From an uncultured Lachnospiraceae bacterium (GTDB lineage Bacteria; Bacillota; Clostridia; Lachnospirales; Lachnospiraceae), in NCBI GenBank assembly GCA_944383965.1, contig CALWRQ010000009.1, positions 1 to 43,872 on the forward strand: a stretch of DNA of 43,872 bases, given 5' to 3'. The notes below the pieces were generated by a model. That model saw nothing but the letters and a program-made list of their open reading frames with translations, had not been told where the DNA came from and did no database searches. Below are positions 210 through 33,206 of this stretch, in pieces (positions within the stretch are counted from its first letter, which is position 1; each line of letters opens with the position of its first letter). Made by a program: the position numbers and the translations under genes.

Positions 210-1538
210 TTACGGTGTCAGCCTGCCCATATCTCTCGGGAACAGGCATCCTTCTCTTACATTGTCTTCTCCCAGAAGCTGTACGGTCAGCCGTTCCAGG
301 CCGATTCCCAGGCCTCCGTGAGGAGGCATCCCGCAGCGGAACGCCTCCAGATATCCTTCCATCCCTTCTTCTGACATCCCTCTGGCTTCCATTTTTTTCA
401 TCAGCATCTGGTAATCGTGGATTCTCTGGCCTCCCGTAGTAATCTCCACCCCTCTGCAGAGGAGATCAAAGCTCAGCGTATACCGGCTGTCCTCCGGGTC
501 ATCCATGGCATAAAAGGGACGTTTTTTCGAAGGATAATGAGTAATGAATACAAAATCACTTCCCAGATATTCCCTTCCGTAACGGCCGATCAGGCTTTCT
601 TCTTCCGGCTCCAGATCATAAGGAGCTCTGGCGGGCCGGCCGTAAACCTCTGACACAAGTTTCTTGGCTTCGTCAAAGCGGAGCGCCGGAATGGACGTGA
701 TTCGGGGAAGTTGGCAATTTAAAAGCTCCAGTTCCCTGCTGTATTCCCTGTTCAGAAGTTCCATGGCATATCGGAGGAACTCCGTCTCCACGCCCATCAC
801 ATCTTCCATACTGTCAATATATCCCATTTCCAGATCCAGGCTGGTATATTCGTTCAGATGTCTTCTGGTATTGTGCTTTTCGGCCCGGAACACCGGCCCG
901 GTTTCAAATACCCGGTCAAACACTCCCACCATCATCTGCTTATAGAACTGGGGACTCTGAGCCAGCACTGCCGGCTTATGAAAGTAGCTGAGCTTGAAAA
1001 TATTGGCTCCTCCTTCCGCTCCTTTCGCTCCGATCTTCGGCGTATGGATCTCCGTAAAACCCTGACTGTAAAGGTAATCCCGGAATCCACGGACCAGCCC
1101 CTCCTGGATCCGGAATCTGGCCCGTTCCCTCAGATTCCTCAGGGAAACAGCCCGGTGATCCAGGCGGGTTTCCAGGGAAGCTTTCATAACCGCTCTGTCT
1201 ATGGGGAGGGGAAGGGGAGATGCGGGAGATGACAGGATCAGTACCTTTTCCGCAGCGATCTCTGCTCCTCCGGGAGCCCTCTCTTCTCTTCTCAGCGTTC
1301 CCCAGACCTTAAGCGTACAGCCCTCCCGGATTTCCCCTGCAGCCTCAAAGCGGTCCTTCTGAAAAACCGTCTGAATCAATCCGTCTCTCTGGCGCAGAAC
1401 TACAAATACTACCTCTCCCAGATTTCTCACCCGGTGTACAGCGCCTTCTGCCTGTACCGCCATTCCCTCCTCCGTCAGCTCTGTCATTTGGCTGATCCGG
1501 AATCCTTCCTGTTTTGTCATTCCTGTAATCTGTTTCAT
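210..1538 (-). CDS. aspS: Aspartyl-tRNA synthetase, archaeal type, probably non-discriminating
   Basis: A class II synthetase of 442 residues, shorter than the ~590-residue bacterial AspRS and lacking the bacterial GAD insertion, so it belongs to the archaeal/AspS2 type. It has an N-terminal OB anticodon-binding fold (about residues 15-105), class II motif 2 (FRAEKHNTRRHLNEYTSLD) and motif 3 (GGLGIGLERL) near the C-terminus. The start at 1538 is chosen because it follows a GGAAGG site; upstream in-frame codons fall in the T-box terminator region. The Trp that archaeal discriminating enzymes carry in the GWV-x-EIR segment appears as Ala here (GAVHRVR), and gatC follows directly. Both suggest it also charges tRNA(Asn) with Asp for GatCAB. 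That specificity is inferred from context, not shown. Confidence 0.9.
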   Translation of the reverse strand: MKQITGMTKQEGFRISQMTELTEEGMAVQAEGAVHRVRNLGEVVFVVLRQRDGLIQTVFQKDRFEAAGEIREGCTLKVWGTLRREERAPGGAEIAAEKVLILSSPASPLPLPIDRAVMKASLETRLDHRAVSLRNLRERARFRIQEGLVRGFRDYLYSQGFTEIHTPKIGAKGAEGGANIFKLSYFHKPAVLAQSPQFYKQMMVGVFDRVFETGPVFRAEKHNTRRHLNEYTSLDLEMGYIDSMEDVMGVETEFLRYAMELLNREYSRELELLNCQLPRITSIPALRFDEAKKLVSEVYGRPARAPYDLEPEEESLIGRYGREYLGSDFVFITHYPSKKRPFYAMDDPEDSRYTLSFDLLCRGVEITTGGQRIHDYQMLMKKMEARGMSEEGMEGYLEAFRCGMPPHGGLGIGLERLTVQLLGEDNVREGCLFPRDMGRLTP

Positions 1539-1594
1539 ACTTTCTTCCTTTCCGTTCCGGAAATGCTTCTGCTGCATGCCCTGCTTTCGGACAC

Positions 1595-1638
1595 AAAAAA
1601 AGTCCCGGAACATTCATTTTCTATGAATCTTCCGGGAC
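1595..1638 (-). terminator. T-box intrinsic terminator upstream of aspS
   Basis: Stem GTCCCGGAA (minus, 1638-1630) pairs with TTCCGGGAC (1610-1602), followed by seven T. The terminator is mutually exclusive with the antiterminator formed by the T-box sequence at 1651-1664. Uncharged tRNA should favour readthrough into aspS-gatC. Confidence 0.92.
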
Positions 1639-2084: not shown

Positions 2085-3293
2085 TTACATGCGGCGGATC
2101 CGCTCCACTGCTTCCTGGGTACTCTCATGACTTCCGAAAGCCGTCAGACGGAAATATCCCTCTCCGGAAGGTCCGAATCCGGAACCGGGAGTTCCAATCA
2201 CTCCTGCCTGCTCCAGGAGCAGGTCGAAAAACTGCCAGGAGGTCATCCCATTGGGCGTTTTCAGCCATATATAGGGGGAGTTTACGCCTCCGGACGCCTG
2301 ATATCCGCAGGAAAGAAGGCCTTCCCGGATCACTGCCGCATTTTTCATGTAATAGCCGATCTGCTCCCTGATCTGTTTTTGTCCGTCTGGCGCGTACACT
2401 GCCTGGCCGGCTCTCTGCACAATATAGGGGGTTCCGTTATATTTTGTTCCCTGCCTCCGGAACCAGAGGTCTCTTAAGCTCACTCCGTCTCTTACCAGTT
2501 CCGAAGGAACCACGGTAAAACCCAGTCTTACTCCCGTAAATCCGGCATTTTTGGAAAAGCTGCGGAACTCTATGGCGCAGGTACGGGCGCCGTCGCACTC
2601 ATAGATACTGTGCGGAATGCCGTCTTCCGTAATGTATGCTTCATAGGCTGCATCATAAAGCAGAACAGAACCGCTCTTATTGGCTGCATCCACCCATTTC
2701 TGCAGCTCTTCTTTCCGGATCGCAGAACCGGTGGGATTGTTGGGAAAGCACAGATAGACAAGCTCCGGCATCTTTTCCGGAATCTCCGGAAGAAATCCGT
2801 TTTCCAGCGTACAAGGCATATAGGTTACATCTCCGTAACGGCCGGATTCCCTGCAAAAATCCCCCGTTCTCCCCGCCATGACATTGGTATCCAGATAAAC
2901 GGGATATACCGGATCGCAAACTGCGATCCTCACCTCCTGGCTGAACAGCTCCTGAGTATTTCCGCAGTCGCATTTTGCGCCATCGGAAATGAAGATCTCA
3001 TCCCCATCGATCTGACAGCCTCTGTCCCGGTAATCTTTTTCAGCGATCACTTCCCGCAGGAATTCATATCCCTGTTCCGGTGCATAACCACGGAATGTTT
3101 CCGCCTTTCCCATCTCATCCACTGCCCGGTGCATGGCTTCCTGCACTGCCGGAACCAGAGGAAGGGTCACATCCCCGATTCCCAGCCGGATCAGGCTGCG
3201 GTCCGGATGAGCCTGGGCGAAAGCGGCGGTCCGCTTCGCCGTCTCGGAGAAAAGATAGCTTCCCTGAAGTTTCTGGTAATTCTTGTTTATCAT
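2085..3293 (-). CDS. dapL: LL-diaminopimelate aminotransferase
   Basis: A PLP-dependent class I/II aminotransferase of 402 residues that converts tetrahydrodipicolinate to LL-diaminopimelate with glutamate as amino donor, the shortcut route to lysine and peptidoglycan DAP. Diagnostic segments are the N-terminal IRLGIGDVTLPLVPAV, the FISDGAKCDCGN stretch typical of DapL, the FPNNPTG motif and the PLP-lysine segment EFRSFSKNAGFTGVRLG. Length matches the family. The start at 3293 has an AGGAGG site. It begins 11 bases after the ANTAR gene, so it is the last gene of the pyrG-gltBD operon. This placement ties glutamate production directly to one of its large anabolic uses. Confidence 0.93.
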   Translation of the reverse strand: MINKNYQKLQGSYLFSETAKRTAAFAQAHPDRSLIRLGIGDVTLPLVPAVQEAMHRAVDEMGKAETFRGYAPEQGYEFLREVIAEKDYRDRGCQIDGDEIFISDGAKCDCGNTQELFSQEVRIAVCDPVYPVYLDTNVMAGRTGDFCRESGRYGDVTYMPCTLENGFLPEIPEKMPELVYLCFPNNPTGSAIRKEELQKWVDAANKSGSVLLYDAAYEAYITEDGIPHSIYECDGARTCAIEFRSFSKNAGFTGVRLGFTVVPSELVRDGVSLRDLWFRRQGTKYNGTPYIVQRAGQAVYAPDGQKQIREQIGYYMKNAAVIREGLLSCGYQASGGVNSPYIWLKTPNGMTSWQFFDLLLEQAGVIGTPGSGFGPSGEGYFRLTAFGSHESTQEAVERIRRM

Positions 3294-3304
3294 AATCGTT
3301 CCTC

Positions 3305-3841
3305 CTAATCATTTTCATAAAGGAGCAGCACCATACGTGCCGTTTCTCCCATTGTACGCCCTGTCTCCATACTGCGTTTCTGAAGATACCGGTGAGCGGC
3401 TTCCTCCGTCAGACGGTTCCGTTCCATCAGCAGGCGCTTGGCCTGACGGACCGCTTTTTCATCTTCTCCGTTTCTTGTCTTTCTACCGCGGACATTCGAC
3501 GTTTTTTCTCCCATCATCATTCTCACGGTATTGACCAGCTCAAATACCCGCACAGGAGCCGCGACCGTCATCATGTCCGGCGGACATTCCGACAGCCTGG
3601 CCTCCGTACCGATCACCAGAAGCTCCACGGCCGGAGGCAGGTATTCCCTGAGGCCGGAACAATGCATATCCTTCAGACGCACGCTGCAGATCAGAATCCC
3701 CTCCTCCATGAGAGCAGCTTCCTGAAGTGCCTGAGAAGGGGATGTGCACAGGATCAGGTTTTCATATCCATTTCTTTCCAGAGCCCGCTTCACATTTTTT
3801 CCGTCCTCCTCTCTGGAAAATGCGATAATGATGCCCTTCAT
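3305..3841 (-). CDS. ANTAR-domain antiterminator with a degenerate receiver domain
   Basis: A 178-residue protein. Residues ~1-112 have a response-regulator-like fold and residues ~127-172 match the ANTAR RNA-binding helices (RQAKRLLMERNRLTEEAAHR followed by YLQKRSMETGRTMGETA). ANTAR proteins bind paired small RNA hairpins and prevent terminator formation. The receiver is degenerate: the position of the phospho-acceptor Asp is Ser53 (ILICSVRL), and the conserved Lys-Pro of beta-5 is Ala95-Pro96. Phosphorylation control is therefore unlikely. Start 3841 is chosen by a GGGGAGGAG site; the upstream in-frame region has none. The gene sits 22 bases after the GS-like gene. ANTAR-type hairpins in the leaders at 12823-12890 and 13025-13070 make autoregulation and control of glnN likely. 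Confidence 0.9.
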   Translation of the reverse strand: MKGIIIAFSREEDGKNVKRALERNGYENLILCTSPSQALQEAALMEEGILICSVRLKDMHCSGLREYLPPAVELLVIGTEARLSECPPDMMTVAAPVRVFELVNTVRMMMGEKTSNVRGRKTRNGEDEKAVRQAKRLLMERNRLTEEAAHRYLQKRSMETGRTMGETARMVLLLYEND

Positions 3842-3863
3842 CTCTCTCCTCCCCTTCCGGCGA

Positions 3864-5147
3864 TCAGTATCGGTACAGATACTCCTGAAGTTCCCATTCC
3901 GTAACCTGTCTCTCATACCGGTGCCATTCTTCCTCTCTGCAGGCCACATAGCGGGAGCAGAGCCGGGTTCCCAGCGCCTGTTTTACGAATGGATCCTTCC
4001 TGAAATGTTCCAGTGCTGCTTCCAGGTTTCCGGGAATCCTGCCCTGAGAAATGCCTTCCGGAAAACAGGCATGGTTTCGGATTCCGTCCATCCCTGCTTC
4101 CAGGCAGAGCGCCAGGAGCAGGTAGGGATTGGCCGCCCCGTCTGCCCCGCGGTATTCCACGCGTGTACGCATACCGCGCACAGGCGGAATACGGATCAGT
4201 GCATTCTCTCTCCTGGAAGACCAGAGCAGGTCTGTGGGAGCTTTTGTACCCGATACCAGTCTTTTATAGGAATTGACCAGCGGATTGGCCACTGCGGTCA
4301 TGGCTTCCATATGACCGAGAAGCCCTCCCGCAAACCATTCCGCAGTCTGGGAAAACCCTTTTCTGTCTTCTGATGCAAATACATTTTCTCCGTTCCGGAA
4401 CAGGGTAAAATGAAGGTGTACTCCCGACCCTTCCGCATTTCCCAGAGGTTTCGGCATAAAGGTTGCATGAAGCCCATGACGCCGCGCCACCGAACGGACA
4501 ATCGTCCGGAATGCGGCGATTCCGTCTGCCGCTTCCAGAAGTCTCATCCTGCCAAGATCAATGCTGTGCTGGCCGGGAGAAATCTCATGCCGGGAAGCCT
4601 CTACCCGCACTCCCATTTCCTCCAGGGTAGATACCATTTCTTTTCTGGCATTTTCCCCCAGATCCACCGGCCCCGCTTCCAGATAGCCCGCTCTCTCATG
4701 GGTCAGGGAAGTGGGCTGACCGTCATCATCCGTGTGAAAAAGAAAGAACTCACATTCCGGCTGAACATACAGCTGATAGCCGTTGCCTGCCGCCTTTTCC
4801 TCCACTGCCTTTAATGCCGCTCTGGAATCCTCCTGGAAGGGGGTTCCGTCCTCCCGGCAGAGGCTGCAGAACATTCTGGCACCGCTCCCGTTCTGACTCT
4901 TCCAGGGCAGAATGGAAAACGTAGACGGATCCGGACAGAGCAGCAGTTCCACTCCATCCTCCCCGTCTCTGCCGGCCAGAAACGTACCGTCCACAAACAC
5001 TGGTTCCTCATTCAGCTTTTTCAGGCGGTCTGACGTCACGGAAACACTTTTCAGCGTTCCCGTAATATCCGTAAACTGAAGACTTACTGAGCCTACTTCT
5101 TCCTCCTCCATTGTCTCCAGAATCCTGCGGAATGCTTCATCTCCCAT
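3864..5147 (-). CDS. Type I glutamine synthetase-like protein with lost catalytic residues
   Basis: Glutamine synthetases ligate ammonium to glutamate. This 427-residue protein has the GSI fold and many landmarks: D27 (QFTD), E131-C-E133 (PECEFFLF), H187-E188, MPKPLG and GSGVHLH (H244, H246), NSYKRL, and R329-V-E-Y-R333. Three key positions are changed. The metal-ligand Glu of the HHEVxPGQxE motif is Ser195 (GQHS). The catalytic flap Glu of the GYEAP motif is Lys302 (SGTKAP). The Arg of the ARNRS motif is Glu314 (SRREN). These correspond to E220, E327 and R339 of the enterobacterial enzyme. Normal synthetase activity is therefore doubtful. Options are a sensor/pseudoenzyme for the adjacent ANTAR protein or a ligase for another substrate. 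It overlaps gltD by 11 bases; a GTG at 5150 is an alternative start. Confidence 0.88.
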   Translation of the reverse strand: MGDEAFRRILETMEEEEVGSVSLQFTDITGTLKSVSVTSDRLKKLNEEPVFVDGTFLAGRDGEDGVELLLCPDPSTFSILPWKSQNGSGARMFCSLCREDGTPFQEDSRAALKAVEEKAAGNGYQLYVQPECEFFLFHTDDDGQPTSLTHERAGYLEAGPVDLGENARKEMVSTLEEMGVRVEASRHEISPGQHSIDLGRMRLLEAADGIAAFRTIVRSVARRHGLHATFMPKPLGNAEGSGVHLHFTLFRNGENVFASEDRKGFSQTAEWFAGGLLGHMEAMTAVANPLVNSYKRLVSGTKAPTDLLWSSRRENALIRIPPVRGMRTRVEYRGADGAANPYLLLALCLEAGMDGIRNHACFPEGISQGRIPGNLEAALEHFRKDPFVKQALGTRLCSRYVACREEEWHRYERQVTEWELQEYLYRY

Positions 5148-6642
5148 CACATGTTCCTCCTCTGTTCAGATTGGAATATCCCATGAGCGAGGCGTCTACC
5201 TGAACAGCCGCCTCTGCGCCTTCCCGTATGGCCCAGACCACCAGGGACTGTCCCCGCCTCATATCTCCCGCGGCAAATACAGCCGGATCAGACGTGGCAA
5301 AACTTCCCTCTCTGCAGGCTGCTCTTCCCCGTTCATTCAGCGTCAGTCCGAAGCTCTCAGCCCCGTACTCCTCCGCCCCGGAAAAGCCGGCAGCAATCAG
5401 TACCAGATCTGCCGGGATCTCCTTTTCTGTTCCCGGCTTGGGAACCATCCTCCGGTTGTTCCCGGTTGTTTCCTCAGTCAGTTCCACTGTGCAGACCTTT
5501 GCCACATTTCCCCTTTTTCCGGGCAGAAATGCGGTGACAGTGGTACAGTACCTTCTCGGATCCTCTCCGTAGACGCTCATGGCCTCTTCCTGTCCGTAAT
5601 CCGTCTTTTTAATCCTGGGCCACTCCGGCCACGGATTCTTATCACTTCTTTTTTCCGGAGGTTCCGGCATCATCTCCAGCTGCACCACAGATCTGGCTCC
5701 CAGGCGGACGGCAGTTCCCACACAGTCATTTCCCGTATCCCCTCCTCCGATGACCACAACTCTTTTTCCTTTCACCGCAGGATACTTTTTATCCTGCAGC
5801 CCGGAATCCAGCAGGCTCTTGGTCACTGCAGACAGAAAATCCACAGCAAACCAGATGCCTCCCGTCTCCCTTCCGGGCACCTGGATATCTCTCGGCTTTC
5901 CGGCTCCGCAGCAGAGCAGAATCCGGTCAAACTCCCGGCGTATGCTCTCTCCCGTCACAGTTTTCCCCACATCGGTATTCAGGCAGAAACGGATTCCTTC
6001 CTCTTTCATCAGGCTGATCCTGCGTTCCACTACCGATTTTTCCAGCTTCATATTGGGAATTCCGTACATCAGAAGGCCTCCCGGCCGGTCACTTTTTTCA
6101 AATACGGTCACCTCATGTCCTCTCCGGTTCAGGAAAAAAGCCGCGGCCAGTCCGGACGGACCGCTTCCGATCACGGCCACCCGTTTTCCCGTGCGGACCT
6201 TCGGCGGCTCGGGGTGTACCCATCCGGAAGCAAAAGCCGTCTCTATGATATGCAGTTCATTTTCTTTGGTGGATACCGGATCCCCGTAAAGTCCGCAGGT
6301 ACAGGCTGCCTCGCAGAGAGCCGGACAGACCCGTCCGGTGAATTCCGGAAAACAGTTGGTTTTTCCAAGCCGTCTGTAAGCCTGTTCCCAGTTACCCATA
6401 AATACCAGATCATTAAACTCCGGTACCAGATTTCTCAAAGGGCAGCCTGACGTCATTCCCCCGAGCGTGGCTGCCGATTGGCAGAACGGCACTCCGCAAT
6501 CCATGCATCTGGCCCCCTGAAGCCTCTGACGTTCTGCCGGAAGGCTGCAGTGAAATTCTCTGAAGTTTTTGATCCTTTCTTCCGGAGAAAGCACTCTGCC
6601 GTTCTCCCTGCCGTAATCCAAAAATCCTGTTGGCTTTCCCAT
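5137..6642 (-). CDS. gltD: Glutamate synthase (NADPH) small subunit
   Basis: The beta subunit of GOGAT takes electrons from NADPH and passes them through FAD and Fe-S clusters to the large subunit. The 501 residues show N-terminal cysteines for the iron-sulfur clusters (RCMDCGVPFC, then SGCP, NCFPEF, CPALCEAACTCG). The FAD loop is VIGSGPSGLAAAF (~157-170) and the NADPH loop VVIGGGDTGNDC (~290). Length is usual for GltD. It starts 3 bases after the gltB stop and its end overlaps the GS-like gene, indicating translational coupling along the operon. Confidence 0.96.
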   Translation of the reverse strand: MGKPTGFLDYGRENGRVLSPEERIKNFREFHCSLPAERQRLQGARCMDCGVPFCQSAATLGGMTSGCPLRNLVPEFNDLVFMGNWEQAYRRLGKTNCFPEFTGRVCPALCEAACTCGLYGDPVSTKENELHIIETAFASGWVHPEPPKVRTGKRVAVIGSGPSGLAAAFFLNRRGHEVTVFEKSDRPGGLLMYGIPNMKLEKSVVERRISLMKEEGIRFCLNTDVGKTVTGESIRREFDRILLCCGAGKPRDIQVPGRETGGIWFAVDFLSAVTKSLLDSGLQDKKYPAVKGKRVVVIGGGDTGNDCVGTAVRLGARSVVQLEMMPEPPEKRSDKNPWPEWPRIKKTDYGQEEAMSVYGEDPRRYCTTVTAFLPGKRGNVAKVCTVELTEETTGNNRRMVPKPGTEKEIPADLVLIAAGFSGAEEYGAESFGLTLNERGRAACREGSFATSDPAVFAAGDMRRGQSLVVWAIREGAEAAVQVDASLMGYSNLNRGGTCDGR

Positions 6643-6645
6643 CCT

Positions 6646-9600
6646 CTACACCTCCCGTTTATTTCCTGTGCTCTCATAGAACGCTTCAATCTGCGCCTGT
6701 TCTCCGGACAGCCCCTGCTCCTCCAGTCTGGCGCACAGAAGCATGACTTTTCGGTAATCATCCGGTATGATCTTTTTAAATCTGGGAAGGTACTCACTGA
6801 AATGCTCCAGCACTTCCCGTCCCTTTTTCGAACCGGTATATTCCACATGGCACCGGATCAGTTCCTTCAGTTCCTGGATATCATAACGGTTTTCCACCTG
6901 CTCCATGGATACCATTTCCCGGTTCAGATGGCGGTACAGCTCATTTTTTTCATCCAGCACATAAGCGATTCCTCCGCTCATTCCCGCGGCAAAATTTTCT
7001 CCCGTTCTTCCAAGAACCACTACCCGGCCTCCGGTCATATATTCGCAGCCGTGATCTCCCACTCCTTCCACCACCGCATTGGCGCCGGAATTGCGCACGC
7101 AGAACCGTTCACCTGCCACTCCGCAGATATAGGCCGCTCCTGATGTTGCTCCGTAAAGGGCTACATTCCCCACGATAATATTTTTATCCGGCTGATATCC
7201 GGCCTCTGCGGGCGGTGCCACTGCCAGAATTCCTCCGGAAAGACCCTTGCCGAAATAGTCATTGCTGTCACCGGAAAGGCTGATGGTCAGACCCTTCGGT
7301 ATAAACGCTCCGAAGCTCTGCCCGCCTGATCCCTGACACCGCACCGTGAAGGTACCGTCAGGAAATCCTTCTTTTCCGGTCCGGGTGATCTCTGATCCCA
7401 GGATCGTTCCGAACGCCCGGTCTGTATTTGACACCTCCAGGGAAACGGTTTTTGCCGTTCCCGTCTCCAGAGACTGACGGAATTCGGGAAGAAGAGCTTT
7501 CACGTCCAGGGAACGGTCCAGGCAAAAGTCATAAGCTTTTTCCGGGCAGAATACCGCTTTTCTCGGTCCTCCTTCCAGAATCGCGGTCACGTCAATACGG
7601 GAAGCGCGGCCTCCCTGTATGCATGCCTTTTTTCTCAGAAGATCCGTCCGGCCCACCAGTTCTTTTACCGTACGGATTCCCAGATCTGCCATGTATTCCC
7701 GCAGTTCCTCCGCAATGAACCTCATAAAGTTCTCCACATATTCCGGTTTTCCTGAAAAGCGTTTTCTCAGTTCCGGATTCTGGGTGGCAATTCCCATAGG
7801 ACAGGTATCCAGATTGCATACCCGCATCATGACGCATCCCAGCGCTACCAGAGGTGCCGTGGCAAATCCGAATTCCTCAGCTCCCAGCATGGCGGCCACT
7901 GCCACATCCCATCCGGTCATGAGCTTTCCGTCTGCCTCAATAGCCACCATCTCCCGCAGACCGTTTCTCATCAGTGTCTGATGGGTCTCTGCCACTCCCA
8001 GCTCCCAGGGCAGGCCTGCGTTATGAATGGAACTGCCCGGAGCCGCTCCCGTTCCACCGTCCGATCCGGAAATCAGAATTACCTGGGCTCCGGCCTTCGC
8101 CACTCCGGCCGCTACAGTCCCTACGCCGGCTTCACTTACCAGTTTTACGGAAATCCGTGCATTTCTGTTCGCATTTTTCAGATCGAAGATCAGCTGGGCC
8201 AGGTCTTCGATGGAATAGATGTCATGATGAGGCGGCGGAGAGATCAGGCTGACGCCCGGAGTAGAATGGCGGGTTTTTGCGATCCACGGGTAGACCTTTC
8301 CTGCCGGAAGGTGTCCGCCTTCTCCCGGTTTTGCTCCCTGAGCCATTTTGATCTGGATCTCTCTGGCGCTTACCAGATAGCGGCTGGTAACGCCGAACCG
8401 GCCGGAAGCGACCTGCTTGATGGCAGAACAGCGATCATTTTCTGTCCCTGCCGAATCCAGCCGTTCCTCGCTTTCTCCTCCCTCTCCCGTATTGGATTTC
8501 CCACCCAACCGGTTCATGGCAATGGCCAGAGCCTCATGGGCCTCCTGAGAAATGGAACCGTAGGACATGGCTCCTGTTTTGAATCTCCTGACGATTGAAT
8601 CTGCCGGTTCTACCTGGTCCAGGGGAATAGGGGTTGTACCGGGAACCAGTTCAAACAGACTCCGGATATTTCCGCAGCTTTCCCGGTCTGCGGCTTTTGT
8701 ATATTCCTTAAAAAGTCCGTAATCTCCTGTGCGCACCGCCTGCTGGAGGAGATGAATGGTCTCCGGATTGTACCGGTGGATCTCCCCCTGACTTCTCATT
8801 TTATGGTTGCCCTCGCTGTCAAAAGTCAGATCCGTCCACAGCCCCAGGGGATCAAATGCCTGTGAATGCAGACTGTCCGCTTCCTTCGCAAGATCTTCCA
8901 GTGTGATTCCTCCGATTCTGCTCACCGTTCCGGTGAAATACCGGTCAATCACTTCTTTTGAAACTCCCACCGCCTCAAAGATCTTCGCTCCCTGGTAGGA
9001 CTGAAGAGTGGAAATTCCCATTTTGGACGCGATTTTTACGATTCCGTGAAGGACGGCGCTGCGGTAGTCCTGTTCCGCCGCTGCATAATCCTTGTCCAGC
9101 ATTCCTTCTTCGATCAGCTGCCCCACTGTTTCCAGAGCAAGGTACGGGTTGACCGCACTGGCCCCGTAGCCCAGCAAAGCGGCAAAATGATGAACATCTC
9201 TGGGCTCTCCCGACTCCAGAATCAGGGACATGGCCGTACGCTTCTTTGTCTGAACCAGGTGCTGATGTACGGCGGAAACTGCCAGAAGAGAAGGAATGGC
9301 CACATGGTTCTCATCCACACCTCTGTCGGAAAGGATCAGAATGGCTGCTCCGTCCCGGTAAGCCTTGTCCACCTCCACAAACAGGTGATCCACCGCTCTT
9401 TCCAGCCGGGCACTTTTATAATAGGTGATCGGGACAACCGCTGTTTTCAGTCTTCCTTCTTTCAGTTCTTTCAGCTTCAGCATGTCCGTATTTCCCAGAA
9501 TAGGCTGGCTGATCTTCAAAACCTGGCAGTTTTCCGCCCGGTCTTCAAGCAGATTGCCGTCTCTTCCCACATAGACTGCTGTGCTGGTTACAATTTCCTC

Positions 9601-11184
9601 ACGGATCGCGTCGATCGGAGGATTGGTCACCTGAGCAAACAGCTGTTTGAAATAGGCAAAGAGCGGCTGCGGCTCTTCCGACAGAGCTGCCAGCGGAATA
9701 TCCGATCCCATGGCCCGGATGCTTTCCGCTCCGTTGAGAGCCATTCCAAGAATGGACGTGCGGTATTCCTCATAGGTATATCCGAATGCCTTCTGAAGTC
9801 TTGCTCTCTGCTCCGGCGTATGCACCGGAGCCTTTCTGTTGGGGATTTTTAAATCCTCTAAGCAGACCAGACCGCCGCTGAGCCATTCCCCATAAGGCTT
9901 CGCTGCCGCGTAATGGCCTTTCAGCTCTTCATCATGGATGATCTTTCCTGCTCTGGTATCCACCAGAAGCATTTTCCCCGGGTGAAGTCTTTCTTTCAGT
10001 ACGATGTCTTCCTCCGGAACGGGAAGAACACCCACCTCAGACGCCAAGATCACCGTACCGTCTTTCAACACATAATATCTGGAAGGCCGCAGCCCGTTTC
10101 GGTCCAGAACGGCTCCCATCACGTCTCCGTCTGAAAACACTATGGAAGCCGGACCGTCCCACGGCTCCATCATGGTAGCGTAGTACTGGTAAAATTCTCT
10201 CTTTTTTTCCGCCATGGCACGGTTGTTTTCCCAGGGTTCCGGTATGGTCACCATTACTGCCAGAGGAAGATCCATGCCGTTCATCATGAGAAATTCCAGG
10301 GTATTGTCCAGCATGGCGGAATCGGATCCCTGCACGTTGATCACCGGCAGGATCTTATGAAGCTCCCCGTTCAGACATGGAGATTCCATGGTCTCTTCCC
10401 TTGCCAGCATTTTATCCGCATTGCCCCGAATGGTATTAATCTCTCCGTTGTGTACGATCAGACGGTTGGGATGAGCTCTTTCCCAGCTGGGTTCCGTATT
10501 GGTACTGAACCGGGAGTGAACCATGGCAATGGCAGAGTCGTAATTTTCTGACTGCAGATCTCTGTAAAAGGTCCGCAGCTGCCCTACCAGAAACATTCCC
10601 TTATATACAATGGTCCGGCTGCTGAGGGACACTACATAGGTTCCCTCATTGCACTGTTCAAACACGCGGCGGACCACATAGAGCTTCCGGTCAAAATCCA
10701 GTCCCCGGTTCACCCCTTCCGGCCGCTTCACAAATCCCTGTTCAATACAGGGCATGCATGCTCTGGCTTTCTGGCCCAGAACTGACGGATCCACGGGCAC
10801 AATGCGCCATCCCAGGAATTCCATTCCCTCTTTTTCCACGATCACCTCGAACATTTTCTTTGCCTGGTTTCTCTTCAGTTCGTTTTCCGGGAAGAAAAAC
10901 ATCCCCACTCCGTAATCCCGCTCTCCGCCCAGACGAATCCCTTCTTCTGCGCAGACTCCGGAAAAAAAGCGGTGAGAGATCTGAAGCAGGATTCCCACTC
11001 CGTCTCCGGTCTTTCCCTCTGCGTCCTTTCCCGCACGGTGTTCCAGATTTTCTACGATTCTCAAAGCCCGTTCCACAGTTGCTCTGCTTTTTCTTCCTTT
11101 GCGGTCCACTACGGCTCCGATGCCGCAGTTATCGTGTTCCATCTGTGGACAGTAAAGTCCCTGCCGGTCTGTTCCGTTTTTCAT
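6646..11184 (-). CDS. gltB: Glutamate synthase large subunit
   Basis: The alpha subunit makes two glutamates from glutamine and 2-oxoglutarate. It is 1512 residues, the normal length. The type II amidotransferase nucleophile is Cys20 (DNCGIG), implying removal of a 19-residue propeptide. The synthase/FMN domain carries [13 protein letters not shown] and the glycine-rich [12 protein letters not shown]. The 3Fe-4S ligands are in [20 protein letters not shown], and the C-terminal beta-helix repeats ([15 protein letters not shown]-type) follow. The start overlaps the pyrG stop (ATGA), so glutamine-using CTP synthase and GOGAT are translationally coupled. Expression should depend on the leader at 12823-12916. 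Confidence 0.97.
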
Positions 11185-12797
11185 AAGCTGTCCGCTCCTT
11201 TCTTTCTCTCAGCTGCCGCCCGCACCAGTCCTGCGAACAGCGGATGGGCATGATTGGGTCTGGATTTGAACTCCGGATGGGCCTGAGTCGCTATGAAATA
11301 GGGATGTTCCGGAAGTTCGATCATCTCCACGATCCGGCCGTCGGGAGACAGACCGGAAAGCCTCATTCCGTGAGCCTTCAGAATCTCCCGGTATTCATTG
11401 TTGAACTCATAGCGGTGACGGTGACGTTCTTTTGTTTCTTCCGTTCCGTAAAGCTTCTCCGCCAGGGATCCCTTCTGAAGTACACAGGGATATGCTCCCA
11501 GGCGGAGTGTTCCGCCCAGATCCGTCACCCCGTTCTGTTCCGGCATCAGAGCGATTACCGGATGGGCAGTATCCGGATTCAGCTCCGTACTGTCCGCATC
11601 CCCCAGACCTGCCACATTTCTGGCAAATTCAATTACCGCCAGCTGCATTCCCAGGCAGATTCCCAGGTAGGGAATCTTCCTTTCTCTTGCATACCGGATC
11701 GCCCGGATCTTCCCGTCAATTCCTCTGTTTCCGAAGCCTCCCGGTACCAGAATCCCGTCCGCACCCCCAAGAAACGCTTCCACAGTTCCGTCTGTCACCT
11801 GCTCCGAATCCACCCAGCGGATATTCACACTGCATCTGTTTTCGATCCCGCCGTGCTTGAGAGCCTCTGCCACGCTTAAATAGGCATCATGAAGCTGCAC
11901 ATATTTCCCCACGAGAGCAATTGTAACCGAGTTTTCCGGATGACGCAGATTCCAGACCATCTGTTTCCATTCCTCCAGATCCGGCGTGCCGCAGGGAAGC
12001 TTCAGGCACCGGCATACCACCTCTGCCAGGTGCTCCTGCTCCATAGCCAGAGGCGCTTCATACAGATATTCCACATCCAGATTCTGGAGCACATGATCCA
12101 CCGGTACATTGCAGAACAGCGCGATTTTTTCTTTTACATCCGTTCCCAGTTCCACCTCTGAGCGGCAGACCAGAATATCCGGCTGTATTCCCATTCCCTG
12201 AAGCTGTTTCACACTGGCCTGAGTGGGTTTGGTCTTCAGCTCCCCGGAAGCTCTCAGATAAGGAATCAGGGTCACATGGATCAGAATGGCGTTTTCTCTT
12301 CCCACCTCCATCTGAAACTGCCGGATCGCCTCCAGAAAGGGCTGGCTTTCCATGTCTCCTACCGTTCCTCCCACTTCTATAATAGCAATGCAGTCCTCTT
12401 CCCGGTCCGAATGGTAAAACCGGCTTTTGATCTCATTCGTAATATGGGGAATCACCTGTACGGTATGGCCGCCGTAATCCCCTCTTCTCTCTTTGTGAAG
12501 AACCGACCAGTAAATCTTTCCCGTTGTCACATTGGAATGCACTCCCAGATTTTCATCAATAAACCGTTCATAATGTCCCAGATCCAGATCGGTCTCTGTT
12601 CCGTCTTCCGTAACAAATACTTCTCCGTGCTGAATGGGATTCATGGTTCCCGGATCCACATTGATATAGGGATCCAGCTTCTGCATGGTAACCCGGTATC
12701 CTCTGGATTTCAGAAGCCTTCCCAGAGACGCTGCCGTGATTCCCTTTCCCAGTCCGGATACCACTCCTCCTGTGACAAATACATATTTTACTGACAT
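11181..12797 (-). CDS. pyrG: CTP synthase (glutamine-hydrolysing)
   Basis: Converts UTP to CTP using ATP and glutamine. The 538 residues have the N-terminal synthetase P-loop ([20 protein letters not shown]) and the C-terminal class I amidotransferase with nucleophile Cys in [10 protein letters not shown] and the HPEF triad segment near the end. The start at 12797 has a GGAG site; codons further upstream lie within the attenuator leader. As first gene of the pyrG-gltB-gltD-GS-like-ANTAR-dapL operon it is unusual: pyrG is more often next to rpoE or alone. Pairing with GOGAT makes sense if the operon responds to glutamine supply. Confidence 0.97.
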
Positions 12798-12811: not shown

Positions 12812-12916
12812 CTCTGAAACAGAAAAAGGGGGTCTTAATCCCTGAACCGCCGGTAATCTCCCGACCGTCCGGTTTCAGACGCCCTTGTCTCCTCAAACTG
12901 TATTTTTCTTTTATAA
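12812..12916 (-). promoter_or_regulatory. ANTAR-type antitermination leader of the pyrG-gltBD operon
   Basis: Hairpin P1 on the minus strand is AGAC-[AAGGGC]-GTCT (12890-12877): 4 base pairs and a hexaloop with A at position 1 and G at 4, the signature recognised by ANTAR proteins. A second small hairpin is CCG-[GACGGT]-CGG just downstream, with G4 but not A1. The GGGC of the P1 loop plus its 3' arm GTCT (12884-12877) pairs with AGACCCCC (12835-12828), one C-C mismatch, to form a terminator followed by T5. P1 and the terminator are thus mutually exclusive. The operon encodes its own ANTAR protein, implying autoregulation. The RNA fold is visible; binding is inferred. Confidence 0.68.
12823..12884 (-). 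terminator. Leader terminator (attenuator) upstream of pyrG
   Basis: Base stem GGGCGTCT / AGACCCCC with one mismatch, an inner stem GA-ACCG / CGGTTC with a bulge, then TTTTT at 12827-12823. It lies 26 bases before the pyrG start. The 5' arm is shared with the ANTAR-type hairpin P1. The short U tract makes it weaker than the glnN counterpart. Confidence 0.62.
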
Positions 12917-12922
12917 GCGAAT

Positions 12923-12951
12923 ATCATATTCTAAATTTGCCGATTTGTAAA
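12923..12951 (-). promoter_or_regulatory. Promoter of the pyrG-gltB-gltD-GS-like-ANTAR-dapL operon
   Basis: TTTACA (12951-12946), 17-base spacer, TATGAT (12928-12923) on the minus strand. The predicted start near 12916 leaves a ~118-base leader. The -35 elements of this promoter and the divergent glnN promoter are 35 bases apart in AT-rich DNA. Confidence 0.78.
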
Positions 12952-12986: not shown

Positions 12987-13014
12987 TTGACATCCTCACT
13001 GATTTGTGTATACT
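12987..13014 (+). promoter_or_regulatory. Promoter of glnN
   Basis: TTGACA (12987-12992), 16-base spacer, TATACT (13009-13014). Predicted start near 13021, immediately before the attenuator hairpins. Confidence 0.82.
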
Positions 13015-13024
13015 ACTTCACATA

Positions 13025-13070
13025 AAGCAAGGGTGCTTCGGTCAACGGCTGGCCGACGCACCCTTTTTTT
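13025..13070 (+). promoter_or_regulatory. ANTAR-type antitermination leader of glnN
   Basis: Hairpin P1 is AAGC-[AAGGGT]-GCTT (13025-13038), a 4-base-pair stem with hexaloop A1/G4. Hairpin P2 is TCGGTC-[AACGGCT]-GGCCGA (13038-13056), a 6-base-pair stem whose loop also has A1 and G4 but is 7 long (5 if A-U pairs). The loop GGGT plus the 3' arm of P1 (GGGTGC, 13031-13036) pairs with GCACCC (13058-13063) to complete a terminator, so P1 excludes the terminator. The P1 loop is the same AAGGGY as in the pyrG leader although the stem sequence differs. This is covariation supporting a common RNA ligand site for the ANTAR protein encoded at 3305-3841. Confidence 0.72.
13031..13070 (+). terminator. Strong attenuator terminator in the glnN leader
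   Basis: GGGTGC, a 1x1 mismatch, TCGGTC, a 7-base loop, GGCCGA, GCACCC, then TTTTTTT, an A and another seven T. It begins only about 10 bases after the predicted transcription start, so glnN should be off unless the hairpin is disrupted. Confidence 0.88.
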
Positions 13071-13102: not shown

Positions 13103-15193
13103 ATGAAAAATATTCCTGAATTATACGGCAGTCTGGTATTCAGTGACCGGGTTATGCGGGCAAAGCTTCCCGGAGATGTGTACAAAGCACTGAAAAAAAC
13201 GATTCAGAATGGTACTCATCTGGAACTGGATGTGGCAAATGCCGTGGCAGTCGCCATGAAAGAATGGGCAGTGGAAAACGGAGCCACTCATTTCACCCAC
13301 TGGTTCCAGCCCATGACCGGCATCACCGCAGAAAAACACGACAGCTTTATCTCTCCCCTGGCTCCCGGTGAAGTAATCATGGAATTCTCCGGAAAAGAGC
13401 TGGTAAAAGGAGAACCGGACGCTTCCAGTTTTCCTTCCGGAGGATTGAGAGCCACTTTTGAGGCACGGGGCTATACGGCATGGGATCCTACTTCTCCCGC
13501 ATTCATCAAGGACGGAACGCTCTATATTCCTACTGCATTCTGTTCCTATACCGGTGAAGCCCTGGACAAAAAAACCCCCCTTCTCCGTTCCATGGAGACA
13601 CTGAATCGTGAAGCCGTCCGTCTCCTGCATCTTCTGGGATACGGAGAGATCTCCCGGGTATCTACTACAGTCGGTCCGGAGCAGGAGTATTTTCTTATTG
13701 ACAAGGAACTGTACCGCCGCAGAAAGGACCTGGTATTCTGCGGAAGAACTCTGTTCGGCGCTCCGGCTCCCAAAGGTCAGGAAATGGAAGATCACTATTT
13801 CGGTGTGCTCCGTCCCAGAGTTTCCGCCTATATGCATGAGCTGGATGAAGAGCTCTGGAAGCTGGGCGTTCCCGCAAAAACCAAGCACAATGAAGTGGCT
13901 CCCGCTCAGCACGAGCTGGCCGCCGTTTATGATACAGCAAACATTGCGGTAGATCATAACCAGCTTACCATGGAAATGATGAAAAAGGTGGCGGATAAAC
14001 ACGGTCTTGCCTGCCTTCTTCACGAAAAGCCCTTTGCCGGCATCAACGGAAGCGGAAAACACAACAACTGGTCTCTGATCACTGACACCGGGCTGAATCT
14101 GCTGAATCCGGGTAAAAATCCGGGAGAAAACCTTCCGTTTCTTCTTTCTCTCGCAGCTGTAATCCAGGCAGTGGACGAATACGGCGATCTTATGCGGATC
14201 TCGGTAGCCAGTGCCAGCAATGACCATCGGCTGGGAGCCAATGAAGCTCCGCCCGCTATAGTATCCATTTTCCTCGGAGATGAGCTCACCTCCCTGCTCT
14301 CCTCCATTGAAAAAGGAACCTCATTTACCGAGCCTGAGACTGTGCAGATGGAAACCGGAGCCAAAGTGATTCCTCACTTCATGAAGGACAATACAGACCG
14401 GAACCGCACCTCTCCCTTTGCCTTTACCGGCAACAAGTTTGAATTCCGGATGCCCGGTTCCTCTCTTTCTTCCGCCGGTCCCAATGTGGTGCTGAACACA
14501 GCCGTCGCTGAAATGTTCCGCCGCTTCTCCCTGCAGCTGGAGAAACTGTCCTCAGGTGAGCGGGAAAGCGCAGCAAAAGAACTGGTGCGCAAAGCGGTCA
14601 CAGAACATAAGAGGATCCTGTTCAACGGAAACGGTTATACGGAAGAATGGGTAAACGAAGCAGGCCGCCGCGGACTCTGGAATCTTATTTCCACTCCTGA
14701 CGCCATTCCTCACCTTCTGGATGAAAAGAATGTGGAGCTGTTTACCAGACACCACATATTCAGCCGCGGAGAAATCTACGCCCGCTATGAAATTCTTCTG
14801 GAAAACTACAGCAAAGCTCTGCAGCTGGAAGGACGGACCATGACGGAAATGATGGAAAAAGATCTTCTTCCCGCACTCCTTGCCCATACGGGTCATACCG
14901 CTGCTGCTGTACAGTCGAAAAAAGAACTGGGACTGCCTCTTGGTTTTGACATCCGTCTTCTGGAAAAGCTCTCTGCTCTCTATGATTCCATCACACAGAG
15001 AACTGAAAAGCTGTCTGACGACCTGAAAAAATCTGCTGACTATGATGATATTCTGGAAACAGCCCGTTTCAGCCGCGATGTGATCCTGGCAGATCTGGAA
15101 GAAATCCGTTCCTTCGCCGATCAGGCAGAAGCTCTGATTCCTGATGAGCTGCTTCCCTATCCTACTTACGACCAGCTTCTGTTTTCTGTATAG
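13103..15193 (+). CDS. glnN: Glutamine synthetase type III
   Basis: A 696-residue GSIII, the usual length for this dodecameric family. Its hallmarks are [42 protein letters not shown] and [18 protein letters not shown]. The active-site Glu of the NEVAPAQHE motif is intact, unlike in the GS-like protein at 3864-5147, so this is probably the working ammonia-assimilating enzyme of the region. The start at 13103 has a GGAGAGG site; the open frame upstream runs through the attenuator and is not used. It is transcribed divergently from the GOGAT operon, with the attenuator in its leader as on/off control. purF follows after 95 bases. Confidence 0.96.
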
Positions 15194-15288: not shown

Positions 15289-16737
15289 ATGAACGCACCC
15301 GAATCTGTTTCCGCCGCATCTTTTACCGGTCTTCATGAAGAATGCGGCGTATTTGCTGTTTTTGACACTGCAGGGAATGATACGGCTCCCCTCATATACC
15401 GCGGTCTCTCCGCTCTCCAGCACCGCGGGCAGGAATCCTGCGGAATTGCCGTATCCTCTACTTCCGGCCCTCCCCGTAATATCCGCTGCCACAAAGGCCT
15501 CGGTCTGGTCAGTGAAGTGTTTTCCCCCTCCATTCTTCACGCACTGCCAGGAAATCTGGGGGTAGGCCACGTACGCTATTCCACCTGCGGCTCCACTTCT
15601 CCGGAAAATGCTCAGCCTCTTGTTCTGAACTACATAAAAGGATCCTTTGCGCTGGCTCATAACGGAAACCTGGTCAACGCCTCCAGACTCCGCAGGGAGC
15701 AGGAAGCGCAGGGAGCTGTTTTCCGTACCACCATTGATTCGGAAGTCATCGCCTGCGGCATTGCCAGAGAACGCGTTCGGACTTCCTCTATAGAAGAAGC
15801 TGTAGAACAGACGGCAAAATGCCTGATGGGCGGTTATGCACTGGCTGTCACCAGTCCCAGAAAACTGATCGGCGTCCGGGATCCCTGGGGGCTGAAGCCT
15901 CTCTGTCTGGGAAAAAAGGACTCTGCCTACTTCCTTTCCTCGGAAAGCTGCGCCTTTTCCTCTCTTGGAATCCAGTTTATACGGGATCTCCTTCCGGGAG
16001 AAATCCTTATCGTCTCCTCTCAGGGTCTTTCCTCCCGTTTCCTTCCTGCCCCGCCGGAAAAAACGGCCCGCTGCGCATTCGAATATATCTATTTCGCCCG
16101 CCTTGACAGCGTAATCGACGGAGTCTCTGTCTATGACGCCCGGTTCCGCAGCGGAGAAGCTCTTGCCCGCCTCCATCCTGCCCAGGCAGACCTGGTTACC
16201 GGTGTTCCTGATTCCGGCCTGACCGCAGCGGCAGGCTTTTCCAAAGCTTCCTCCATTCCCTTTGCACTGGCTCTCTGCAAGAACAGCTATGTGGGCCGGA
16301 CTTTCATAAAGCCTACGGACGAAGAACGCCAGAATGCCGTCCGCATGAAGCTGAGCGTTCTGACGTCTGTGGTAAAGGGAAAGCGGATCGTATTGGTAGA
16401 CGACTCCCTGGTCAGGGGGACTACCATGTCCGCCCTGGTGAAAATGCTCCGCCAGGCAGGAGCTTCTCAGATCCATGTACGGATCTCATCGCCTCCGTTC
16501 CTGTTTCCCTGTTATTTCGGGACGGACGTTCCCTCCAACCGCCAGCTCATTGCCTCTTCCCATTCAGAGGCGGACATCTGCTCCCTCATCGGCGCCGATT
16601 CTCTTGCCTACCTTCCCATGGAGGCCCTGGATCATATGGCAGAAGGGCTCTCTCTGTGCAAAGCCTGCTTCGACGGTCACTATCCCATGACCGTTTCGGA
16701 CTGCAGGCTGCAGAATGGCAAAGATGCTTTTAGCTGA
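15289..16737 (+). CDS. purF: Amidophosphoribosyltransferase
   Basis: First committed step of purine synthesis: PRPP plus glutamine gives phosphoribosylamine. 482 residues. The type II amidotransferase nucleophile is Cys19 (EECGVFAVF), implying removal of an 18-residue propeptide as in the Bacillus enzyme. The PRPP loop is IVLVDDSLVRGTTM. Cysteines for a 4Fe-4S cluster are present: RCAFEYIYFARLDS, FPCYFGTD and LCKACFDGHYP. The ribosome site is AAGGAGG. No separate promoter was evident, so it probably shares the glnN transcript, tying a glutamine consumer to its supplier. Confidence 0.96.
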   Translation: MNAPESVSAASFTGLHEECGVFAVFDTAGNDTAPLIYRGLSALQHRGQESCGIAVSSTSGPPRNIRCHKGLGLVSEVFSPSILHALPGNLGVGHVRYSTCGSTSPENAQPLVLNYIKGSFALAHNGNLVNASRLRREQEAQGAVFRTTIDSEVIACGIARERVRTSSIEEAVEQTAKCLMGGYALAVTSPRKLIGVRDPWGLKPLCLGKKDSAYFLSSESCAFSSLGIQFIRDLLPGEILIVSSQGLSSRFLPAPPEKTARCAFEYIYFARLDSVIDGVSVYDARFRSGEALARLHPAQADLVTGVPDSGLTAAAGFSKASSIPFALALCKNSYVGRTFIKPTDEERQNAVRMKLSVLTSVVKGKRIVLVDDSLVRGTTMSALVKMLRQAGASQIHVRISSPPFLFPCYFGTDVPSNRQLIASSHSEADICSLIGADSLAYLPMEALDHMAEGLSLCKACFDGHYPMTVSDCRLQNGKDAFS

Positions 16738-21361: not shown

Positions 21362-22075
21362 TTACCGGTTCTTGTTCACGATTCTGGTCTCATAGGTTCC
21401 TGTTTCAATATCAATATAGCGTACAAACAGAGATACCTTGTTTTCCTCATTCAGACTGTTCCAAAGAAGATCTGCAAAGCTGTCAATATCATCCGGAATT
21501 GCCACCCGTTTCGGCTCTCCTTCAAAGCTGGGAAGGGGGTTGCCGTCATGCATATAGGTATGGATGAACCGTCCCTCTCCGTTCAGGGGATTTTCGTAGG
21601 CGTAGGTAAAACGGCTGCAGCTCTCCGGGTTTCCGTTGCTGCTCTTTAAAATGGACAGAGCATAATTATATTTTCCGTTTTCAATATGCATGATTCCGGA
21701 TATCCTGGGCGTGTAGTTAGGACCGTCCGGCTCAAATTCCCGGCTGCGGAGAGACTGTTCAAATGTCAGCTGCCGGTCCATTCCTTCATAAATGGTATCC
21801 GTCTGGTCTCCATTGGTCACAATCGTCTTGTTTCCCAGTACCCGTACCGGAGCGTAGATGATCAGGCTGGGATCCGTAAGCTTGGCCGGGTCAAAAGCCT
21901 GGGTACGGATTCCCTGCCCGTCTTCCACAAACACCCGGTTGCGGCTGTTTTCGCTTCTTCCCATAATAAAGTAAGCGGCTGCCGCTTTCTTTCCGTCCAT
22001 TGTCTTTCCGATAACGATTCCCCGTCCCGGATAAGCGTTCGACTTCAGTTCCTGCTCCATTGATACGATTTCCAT
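21362..22075 (-). CDS. purO: IMP cyclohydrolase, PurO type
   Basis: 237-residue protein of the PurO family (archaeal-type IMP cyclohydrolase, also in Clostridia), closing the FAICAR ring to IMP. Family features are the N-terminal YPGRGIVIGKTMDGKKAAAAY, the RNRVFVEDG segment and the central NYTPRISGIMHIENGKYNYA. The start at 22075 has an AGGAGG site; the open frame further upstream runs through the riboswitch. It is under the ZTP riboswitch and followed directly by the AICAR transformylase. Confidence 0.9.
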   Translation of the reverse strand: MEIVSMEQELKSNAYPGRGIVIGKTMDGKKAAAAYFIMGRSENSRNRVFVEDGQGIRTQAFDPAKLTDPSLIIYAPVRVLGNKTIVTNGDQTDTIYEGMDRQLTFEQSLRSREFEPDGPNYTPRISGIMHIENGKYNYALSILKSSNGNPESCSRFTYAYENPLNGEGRFIHTYMHDGNPLPSFEGEPKRVAIPDDIDSFADLLWNSLNEENKVSLFVRYIDIETGTYETRIVNKNR

Positions 22076-22121
22076 GCGTATACCTCCTGATTTTCCTTTT
22101 CCGAAAGACTGTCCGCAAAAC

Positions 22122-22172
22122 AAAAAACCGTCCGGACAGCCTATGGATATTCCATGATGCTGCCCAGACGGT
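22122..22172 (-). terminator. ZTP riboswitch terminator
   Basis: ACCGTCTGGGCAGC (22172-22159) pairs with GCTGTCCGGACGGT (22140-22127) with a few internal mismatches, followed by TTTTTT. It contains the aptamer's CUGGGCA element. Confidence 0.88.
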
Positions 22173-22238
22173 CGACATTTCTGCTTCCACGTGCTCCCTG
22201 TGGTTCCACCACTATCCGTCAGTTGCACGTCCTAATGT
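22122..22238 (-). promoter_or_regulatory. ZTP (pfl) riboswitch with expression-platform terminator
   Basis: The minus strand carries the conserved ZTP/ZMP aptamer: an ACGTGCAACTGACGG start, GTGGTGGAACCAC, AGGGAGCACGT and the hallmark CGACCGTCTGGGCA (~22174-22161). The last element is also the 5' arm of the terminator, so ligand binding at high ZMP/ZTP (10-formyl-THF shortage) should prevent termination. It fits the downstream genes, which act on AICAR (ZMP) and its product. Confidence 0.92.
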
Positions 22239-32851: not shown

Positions 32852-33206
32852 CAGCCGTATGAGCAAGACGATAAGCCGGGTTATGTCGTTGGATGGTCAT
32901 CTATCTAGGCCTGACGTCGCCGTCAGGCTCCAGCGGCCTACCCGGGAGCGGACGGGCCGCCCATGCTCCCTGTTCGGCCTTGCTTCGGATGGGGTTTACA
33001 TGTGCCCTTTCTGTTACCAGAAAGGCGGTAGTCTCTTACACTGCCTTTCCACCCTTACAGAGAAATCTCTGCGGTTTATTTCTGTTGCACTGTCCTTGGA
33101 GTCGCCTCCACCAGACGTTATCTGGCATCCTGCCCTGTGAAGCCCGGACTTTCCTCCCCTGCAGCCTTTCGGTTCTGCAGCAGCGACCATCTGTCTTACT
33201 CAAAAC
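32852..33206 (-). ncRNA. rnpB: RNase P RNA, catalytic subunit of ribonuclease P
   Basis: The minus strand holds the conserved core: GAGGAAAGTCCGGGCTTCAC (P4/CR-I) near the 5' end, AGGGTGGAAAGGCAGTG in the middle, ACAGAAAGGGCACATG, and the 3' core GGCCTAGATAGATGACCATC ending in ACCCGGCTTATCGTCTTG. The RNA cleaves 5' leaders from pre-tRNAs. About 355 nucleotides. Ends are set approximately by the promoter at 33213-33241 and the terminator at 32826-32850. Confidence 0.96.

Follow-up and report, generated by a model that had tools for sequence, protein, structure and literature searches.

A glutamine synthetase-like protein with altered catalytic residues is paired with an ANTAR protein, a candidate sensor for single-hairpin antitermination in a Lachnospiraceae bacterium

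ANTAR proteins bind RNA hexaloops that carry A1 and G4 (accessible text of PMC3369931), and this binding prevents terminators (PMC3369936 and the accessible text of PMC3369931). ANTAR control of ammonium transporters and of glutamate and glutamine synthases, through dual hairpins, was predicted earlier in the accessible text of PMC3369931; the available part of PMC8934654 asks why EutV requires two hairpins when a dimer binds one. AmiR has a pseudo-receiver and is gated by AmiC (PMC3369936), and NasT is likewise gated by a neighboring ligand-binding protein, NasS (accessible text of PMC3795266). In Clostridium saccharobutylicum, the ANTAR protein NitR induces GS/GOGAT genes on nitrogen limitation (accessible text of PMC6316151, which cites Stutz 2007). 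Finally, in Bacillus and its relatives glutamine synthetase (GS) gates the regulators GlnR and TnrA, and GlnR is encoded in an operon with GS (accessible text of PMC9249791).

The locus described here lies in a window of 43,872 nucleotides, the whole stretch of DNA that we analyzed, from an uncultured Lachnospiraceae bacterium (Table 1). It encodes a GS-like protein followed directly by an ANTAR protein, and it resembles each of these systems in part. The putative likeness to NitR, drawn from its description, is ANTAR antitermination that induces GS/GOGAT genes on nitrogen limitation; the accessible text mentions neither a broken GS nor a GS-fold sensor as a partner of NitR. AmiC–AmiR and NasS–NasT offer the arrangement of an ANTAR protein gated by its neighbor, but their partners respond to amides or nitrate, whereas the neighbor here has a GS fold. 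GlnR and TnrA are transcription factors that work with an active GS; here, by contrast, the predicted output is through RNA, and the glutamine latch and R316 of the GS have been lost. The EutV and NasR leaders share with ours an A1/G4 hexaloop, a hairpin set against a terminator and nitrogen genes downstream, but contain two hairpins where most of our elements contain one (accessible text of PMC3369931). The single hexaloop hairpin competing with a terminator in the leaders of the pyrG operon and of the type III GS (GSIII) gene is new here. A literature search of titles and abstract openings, mostly outside subscription papers, turned up no broken GS as an ANTAR partner, no class-wide GS–ANTAR pairing with catalytic loss and no single-hairpin leaders. 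We favor, as a reasonably probable reading, a sensor–antiterminator module in which the GS-like protein would be a non-catalytic receptor that gates the ANTAR protein on glutamine genes.

The pyrG, gltB, gltD, GS-like and ANTAR genes overlap or are closely spaced and so probably form one operon. GSIII (glnN) is encoded divergently, as the earlier note had stated, with a likely start at 13103 rather than 12983, and purF (15289-16737, +) lies directly downstream of it. Elsewhere in the window are a ZMP/ZTP riboswitch (22155-22236, −) that overlaps the listed start of an IMP cyclohydrolase-like gene (21362-22228), after which comes an AICARFT-domain gene, a class A bacterial RNase P RNA (32856-33202, −) and a transposase gene (DDE_Tnp_1_6, DUF772; 28075-29679, +).

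Table 1. Features of the locus, in window coordinates
Feature	Position	Strand	Remark
Class II aminoacyl-tRNA synthetase (Asp/Asn/Lys type)	210..1613	−	same strand, downstream
LL-diaminopimelate aminotransferase	2085..3293	−	same strand, downstream of ANTAR gene
ANTAR protein with pseudo-receiver, 178 aa, ATG start	3305..3841	−	directly after GS-like gene
GS-like protein, type I GS fold	3864..5147	−	five active-site positions changed
gltD, glutamate synthase small subunit	5137..6642	−	same (probable) operon
gltB, glutamate synthase large subunit	6646..11184	−	same (probable) operon
pyrG, CTP synthase	11181..12797	−	first gene of the probable operon; start picked by eye
Terminator with U tract, pyrG leader	12824..12886	−	hexaloop and 3′ arm in common with hairpin
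Hexaloop hairpin AGAC[AAGGGC]GTCT, pyrG operon leader, putative antiterminator	12877..12890	−	loop at 12886
Promoter-like TTTACA-17-TATGAT	12923..12951	−	upstream of pyrG leader hairpin
Promoter-like TTGACA-16-TATACT of GSIII gene	12987..13014	+	
Hexaloop hairpin AAGC[AAGGGT]GCTT, GSIII leader, putative antiterminator	13025..13038	+	10 nt after −10 box; loop at 13029
Terminator stem-loop and U tract, GSIII leader	13029..13070	+	hexaloop and 3′ arm in common with hairpin
glnN, type III glutamine synthetase (GSIII)	13103..15193	+	divergent; probable start picked by eye

The 178-residue ANTAR protein contains an ANTAR domain (PF03861, 56 bits against a cut-off of 27) and a receiver in which Ser53 stands in for the phospho-acceptor Asp. 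Scanning genome contigs confirmed at least 486 relatives, of which the best 80 were retained for reading, and the acceptor is missing from 81/81 ANTAR proteins of the window and these 80 loci, with G, S, A, T or N in its place. The receiver thus cannot be phosphorylated, as the earlier note had maintained, and the protein belongs to the pseudo-receiver type of AmiR and not to the phosphorylatable-receiver type of EutV. The best Foldseek matches of a single-chain model (mean pLDDT 85) are Rv1626, EutV and AmiR, with TM scores of 0.43-0.49.

Both leaders in Table 1 carry features of ANTAR targets, an A1/G4 hexaloop on a stem and an overlapping terminator. The element consists of a hairpin of at least 4 bp capped by an AANGGY hexaloop, whose loop and 3′ arm double as the 5′ arm of the terminator; the GSIII leader folds with an energy of −25.3 kcal/mol (z −5.3). 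The 81 sequences contain 102 hexaloop–terminator elements, versus 12 in one shuffled set; 86 of the 102 have the AANGGY form and are spread over 55 sequences, the other 26 sequences having no AANGGY element. Outside the window, 88 elements fit A[AG]NG[GA]Y: 43 precede GS–ANTAR, 18 pyrG and 8 GSIII, 2 are labeled aspS and 4 gltB (2 of them within coding sequence), 5 have no readable gene and 8 are unlabeled, including 5 at purF by eye. A purF-like gene (by eye) with its own hexaloop element occurs in L004, L009, L018, L036 and L046; no such arrangement was seen in the window. Both folds covary across 54 aligned elements (hexaloop stem 0.57 versus 0.26 shuffled; terminator 0.65 versus 0.29). Moreover, promoter-like sites matching at least 9/12 positions lie upstream of 81 of the 86 AANGGY elements (19.6 expected from shuffles), and sites matching at least 10/12 upstream of 78 (2.9 expected), with a median distance of 9 nt from −10 box to hairpin over the 86.

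Upstream second hexaloops show no excess over chance (5/86 elements versus 4.1 expected), and the elements are therefore single-hairpin, unlike EutV targets. In the window, a dual-hexaloop scan gave no match and the single-hairpin scan found the element; a possible AT-rich second hairpin upstream in L002 and L003, two close relatives, is missing from the window. Hairpin scans also picked up tandem hexaloop-like repeats upstream of the GS–ANTAR leader in L060 (2740-2900) and L063 (5970-6130). Rfam searches of the window leaders returned no family at the gathering threshold, two weak matches falling far below their cut-offs, and no match in the leaders of five relatives.

A covariance model built from 54 elements and searched at E ≤ 1e-4 in 196 genomes of the class matched in 41. 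Of the 99 genomes that have ANTAR genes, 40 gave a match, compared with 1 of the 97 that lack them (G196; Fisher 3e-13), the counts being 39 and 1 when the window's genome is set aside; in 59 of the 99 ANTAR genomes there is no match at this threshold. These covarying leader elements, tied as they are to the presence of ANTAR genes, support the antitermination proposed in the earlier note. In 27 of the 29 match loci that were read, the AANGGY hexaloop sits on a stem of at least 4 bp, and the elements lie mostly before nitrogen genes: 8 loci have GSIII downstream, 4 have type I GS (GSI), another 4 have an ammonium transporter, L107 has gltB, and L117 and L131 encode class II glutamine amidotransferase proteins (19/29 in total). 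Other downstream genes encode SAICAR synthetase (L127), an ATP-grasp protein (L103), a PucR-type regulator (L106) and an ABC ATPase (L112); L109, L115, L123, L124, L126 and L129 carry no gene assignment. A second hexaloop is found upstream in 5 of the 27 class match loci (2.1 expected). In L116, an ammonium transporter gene is preceded by a leader with two convincing hexaloops (around 1484 and 1506, −).

Which ANTAR protein reads these elements bears on the receptor role we favor. In the window genome (86% completeness), contig C39 carries at its end a second ANTAR gene (L084), with a diaminopimelate epimerase-like frame (by eye) after it; contig C74 likewise carries at its end a further GSI, whose core is intact (L081). 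Among the matches listed, the nearest orthologues of the GS-like protein are L001–L003, and these genomes also encode an orthologous intact-core GSI, with an ANTAR gene directly downstream in 3/3. Because that pair is unbroken there, the C74 and C39 ends probably meet, which would place the second GSI with the second ANTAR gene. Two ANTAR genes in one genome count against the sensor model, since either product could read the elements. An unlikely alternative is that the second ANTAR protein, probably encoded beside the intact GSI, reads them while the window pair has other targets or acts as an antagonist; departures of the window ANTAR domain from the family consensus at several positions would fit this scheme. 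However, the operon that encodes the window pair itself carries the elements, and the intact-GSI leaders (L081, L086–L088) have neither a model match at E ≤ 1 nor an AANGGY hexaloop; that of L086 has two hexaloops of other sequence. In the window genome, the GSIII element, which was in the training set, is the only one that the model separates from noise, at 39 bits versus 26 for the next match. The pyrG element scores low (16-17 bits in L001–L003), and the window's own is not among the matches listed. Other matches in this genome were rejected by eye as ordinary-looking terminators or as lacking a hexaloop stem.

For a GS-like protein that gates an ANTAR protein, the constancy of the pair is the first consideration. 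An ANTAR gene lies directly downstream of GS in 80/80 loci (best 80 of at least 486 relatives). In the class sample of 196 genomes, thresholds of E ≤ 1e-60 for GS and E ≤ 1e-5 for ANTAR genes gave 140 and 107 matches, respectively. Downstream of 76 of the 140 GS, each of these on a contig of its own, an ANTAR gene follows within 1.5 kb in the same orientation, and 76 of the 107 ANTAR genes sit after a GS. The pair, which the earlier note had read as a module from one locus, is conserved and not local to the window. Because the pairing recurs across relatives, this old enzyme is probably now part of a nitrogen sensor. Against the model, a mirror-tree comparison of 16 sequences did not set GS–ANTAR apart: its partial correlation (0.28) was below those for GS–gltB (0.43) and GS–dapL (0.35). 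One locus (G122:C1:2277913-2280980) carries a tandem GS, a divergent GS and an ANTAR gene on one strand.

The Pfam domains Gln-synt_N and Gln-synt_C (336 bits), the best PDB relatives and the predicted single-chain fold (mean pLDDT 81, pTM 0.85; nearest to GSI structures, TM 0.87) concur in assigning the GS-like protein to type I GS. It does not reach the NCBIfam GlnA equivalog cut-off (369 versus 429 bits). The reading frame could begin at a GTG (5150..3864) or at ATG 5147, which is better placed, behind AGGAGG. Alignment to S. aureus GS (7tdv), with B. subtilis numbering and with spacings that fit from R62 to E333, bears out the three substitutions that the earlier note had read on a GS fold: Ser195 for E196, Lys302 for E304 and Glu314 for R316. 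R62 is also changed, to Gly, as is the N-loop Asn N240, to Glu, whereas E132, E134, E189, H245, R298, E333, R335 and the catalytic Asp are retained. E196 is a metal-ligand position of GSI. The protein lacks the complete GSI catalytic set of six metal ligands, flap Glu and R316 and, judging from the loss of residues needed for catalysis, is presumably inactive. L001–L003, which are 73-77% identical to it, are changed at the same sites but have Gly instead of Ser at E196.

Across the best 80 of at least 486 loci, E196 is retained in 77, L001–L003 being the exceptions. Position 304 in this set is E in 62, D in 7, K in 5, G in 5 and A in 1, position 316 is R in 51, Q in 18, E in 4, K in 4 and P, L or N in 1 each, and both functions (E/D and R/K) are retained together in 55. 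In the class sample, 75 linked copies and 60 of the 64 unlinked ones were examined at the core positions E132, E134, E189, E196, H245, R298, E304 (D allowed), R316 (K allowed), E333 and R335, leaving gaps uncounted. At least one position is lost in 28/75 ANTAR-linked versus 1/60 unlinked copies (Fisher 9e-8, counted by copies; the losses are only 9 changes of state on the tree, and an independent-pairs test is without power), and at least two are lost in 11 versus 0. Core positions are thus lost almost only in ANTAR-linked copies, and the uniformly intact linked homologues that would have refuted the earlier proposal are not what we see; the three positions named in the earlier note are, however, not lost in every linked copy.

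The lost positions are diverse and include metal ligands, His245, E333 and the flap. The ANTAR-linked GS-like protein of L206 (169-1452; G217, of the window's family) has a gap at the flap Glu, and by eye a short unrelated stretch replaces the flap and the Arg316 stretch. Lys304 occurs in 14 linked copies, 12 of which retain all other core positions. Asp at R62 accompanies it in 10 of the 14, against 6 of the 54 copies where position 304 is E or D (Lys304 represents 3 changes on the tree, and a paired test is without power); in Lys304 copies the flap is one residue shorter (by eye) and the R62-loop alignment is less sure. GSIII is present in 28/28 genomes with a damaged linked copy, and the 7 genomes without GSIII are all among the 47 with an intact one (p 0.04); proximity of GSIII to the linked GS (at most 10 kb) shows no difference (11/28 damaged versus 15/47 intact). 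An association of R316 loss with a second GSIII (24/25 versus 7/55 of the best 80 of at least 486 loci, GSIII counts parsed by hand), though strong in numbers, was set aside, as only 5 R316 changes fall on the tree and a paired test showed no effect.

These residues also bear on the rather unlikely alternative that the GS-like protein is still catalytic, as a ligase whose acceptor has changed or whose GS activity is weak, and is merely co-transcribed with an ANTAR protein gated otherwise. The window protein keeps six of the seven residues E132, E134, E189, E196, H245, R298 and E333, the otherwise intact cores of most Lys304 copies elsewhere are compatible with activity, and other GS-fold ligases exist, such as glutamate-methylamine ligase. 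Nevertheless, 4/4 members of the clade have replacements at a metal ligand, the flap Glu and R316 at once, and one shared new reaction is disfavored because the losses are diverse yet almost confined to linked copies.

If the GS-like protein is a receptor, its ligand is probably not read as in Bacillus. In Bacillus GS, E304 contacts glutamine and bonds R62, and R62 and R316 hold the GlnR tail; the roles of the flap Glu, Arg62 and Arg316 come from the same source (accessible text of PMC9249791). The window protein has K, G and E at positions 304, 62 and 316, making glutamine sensing through this latch unlikely and weakening the Bacillus analogy of the earlier note. With E304 and R62 lost, the protein would therefore bind another ligand, read glutamine differently or act as a fixed partner. 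The trio R62 (or K), E304 (or D) and R316 (or K) is complete in 39/80 loci (best 80 of at least 486), and in 25/75 linked versus 32/60 unlinked class-sample copies, a minority of the linked ones, which weakens the analogy further. Because R62 is the latch residue most often changed, in unlinked copies too, Bacillus-type glutamine reading is not to be assumed even where the core is intact. Taken whole, the earlier interpretation is partly supported.

The second GSI copies retain R62, E196 and R316 and have Asp at 304. With such an intact-core GSI in the window genome and in those of L001–L003, and with an alignment of the window protein to GSI that extends to the C-terminus, the GS-like protein could be an inactive subunit of mixed rings that tunes the activity of the intact enzyme, its tie to ANTAR being indirect. 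We regard this as improbable: a single GSI is seen in the draft genomes of L004, L005, L015, L017, L020, L026 and L040 (R316Q, with Gly or Lys at E304), and the intact GSI of L001–L003 has its own ANTAR neighbor. The lower identity of the GS-like proteins (73-78% versus 87-93% for intact GSI; five pairs, L001–L002 left out) would fit a decaying duplicate that is being lost. This reading is very improbable and largely refuted by an open frame in all four, a kept place in the operon and a dN/dS of 0.04-0.17 (six pairs among the window and L001–L003), purifying selection similar to that on gltD (0.10-0.17) that argues for maintenance of the gene, intact GSI being at 0.02-0.07. Accelerated evolution of the GS-like gene, considered for its long stem branch, was dropped because other operon genes are proportionally about as distant.

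Our preferred model, with the GS-like protein as receptor, would work as follows. In the leaders of GSIII and of the pyrG-gltB-gltD-GS-ANTAR operon, the ANTAR protein would bind the single hexaloop hairpin, which when bound would stay folded and block the terminator that overlaps it. Since phosphorylation is not open to its receiver, the ANTAR protein presumably responds to contact with another protein, in the way that AmiR responds to AmiC; the GS-like protein is the likeliest partner. AmiC–AmiR gating, the constant GS-fold neighbor and NitR induction on nitrogen limitation together suggest that the GS-like protein restrains the ANTAR protein when nitrogen is plentiful; nitrogen limitation would then most likely free it, turning the glutamine genes on. 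In most relatives read, the GS partner keeps its catalytic core, whereas in the window lineage it appears to have been remodeled into a non-catalytic GS-fold receptor, and glutamine synthesis would be left to GSIII and the second, intact-core GSI.

More broadly, we judge it an evenly balanced possibility that across the class ANTAR-tied GS have repeatedly been turned into GS-fold receptors that gate single-hairpin antitermination, some with charge-reversed latches (Lys304, Asp62). The single-hairpin leaders bear directly on the two-hairpin question raised in the available part of PMC8934654. If the model is correct, the relatives would display an enzyme-to-sensor conversion at many stages, from GS with an intact core to copies without metal ligands or the flap Glu. 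It would also define a glutamine regulon and explain how ANTAR proteins with non-phosphorylatable receivers are gated in these gut bacteria and their relatives among the Clostridia.
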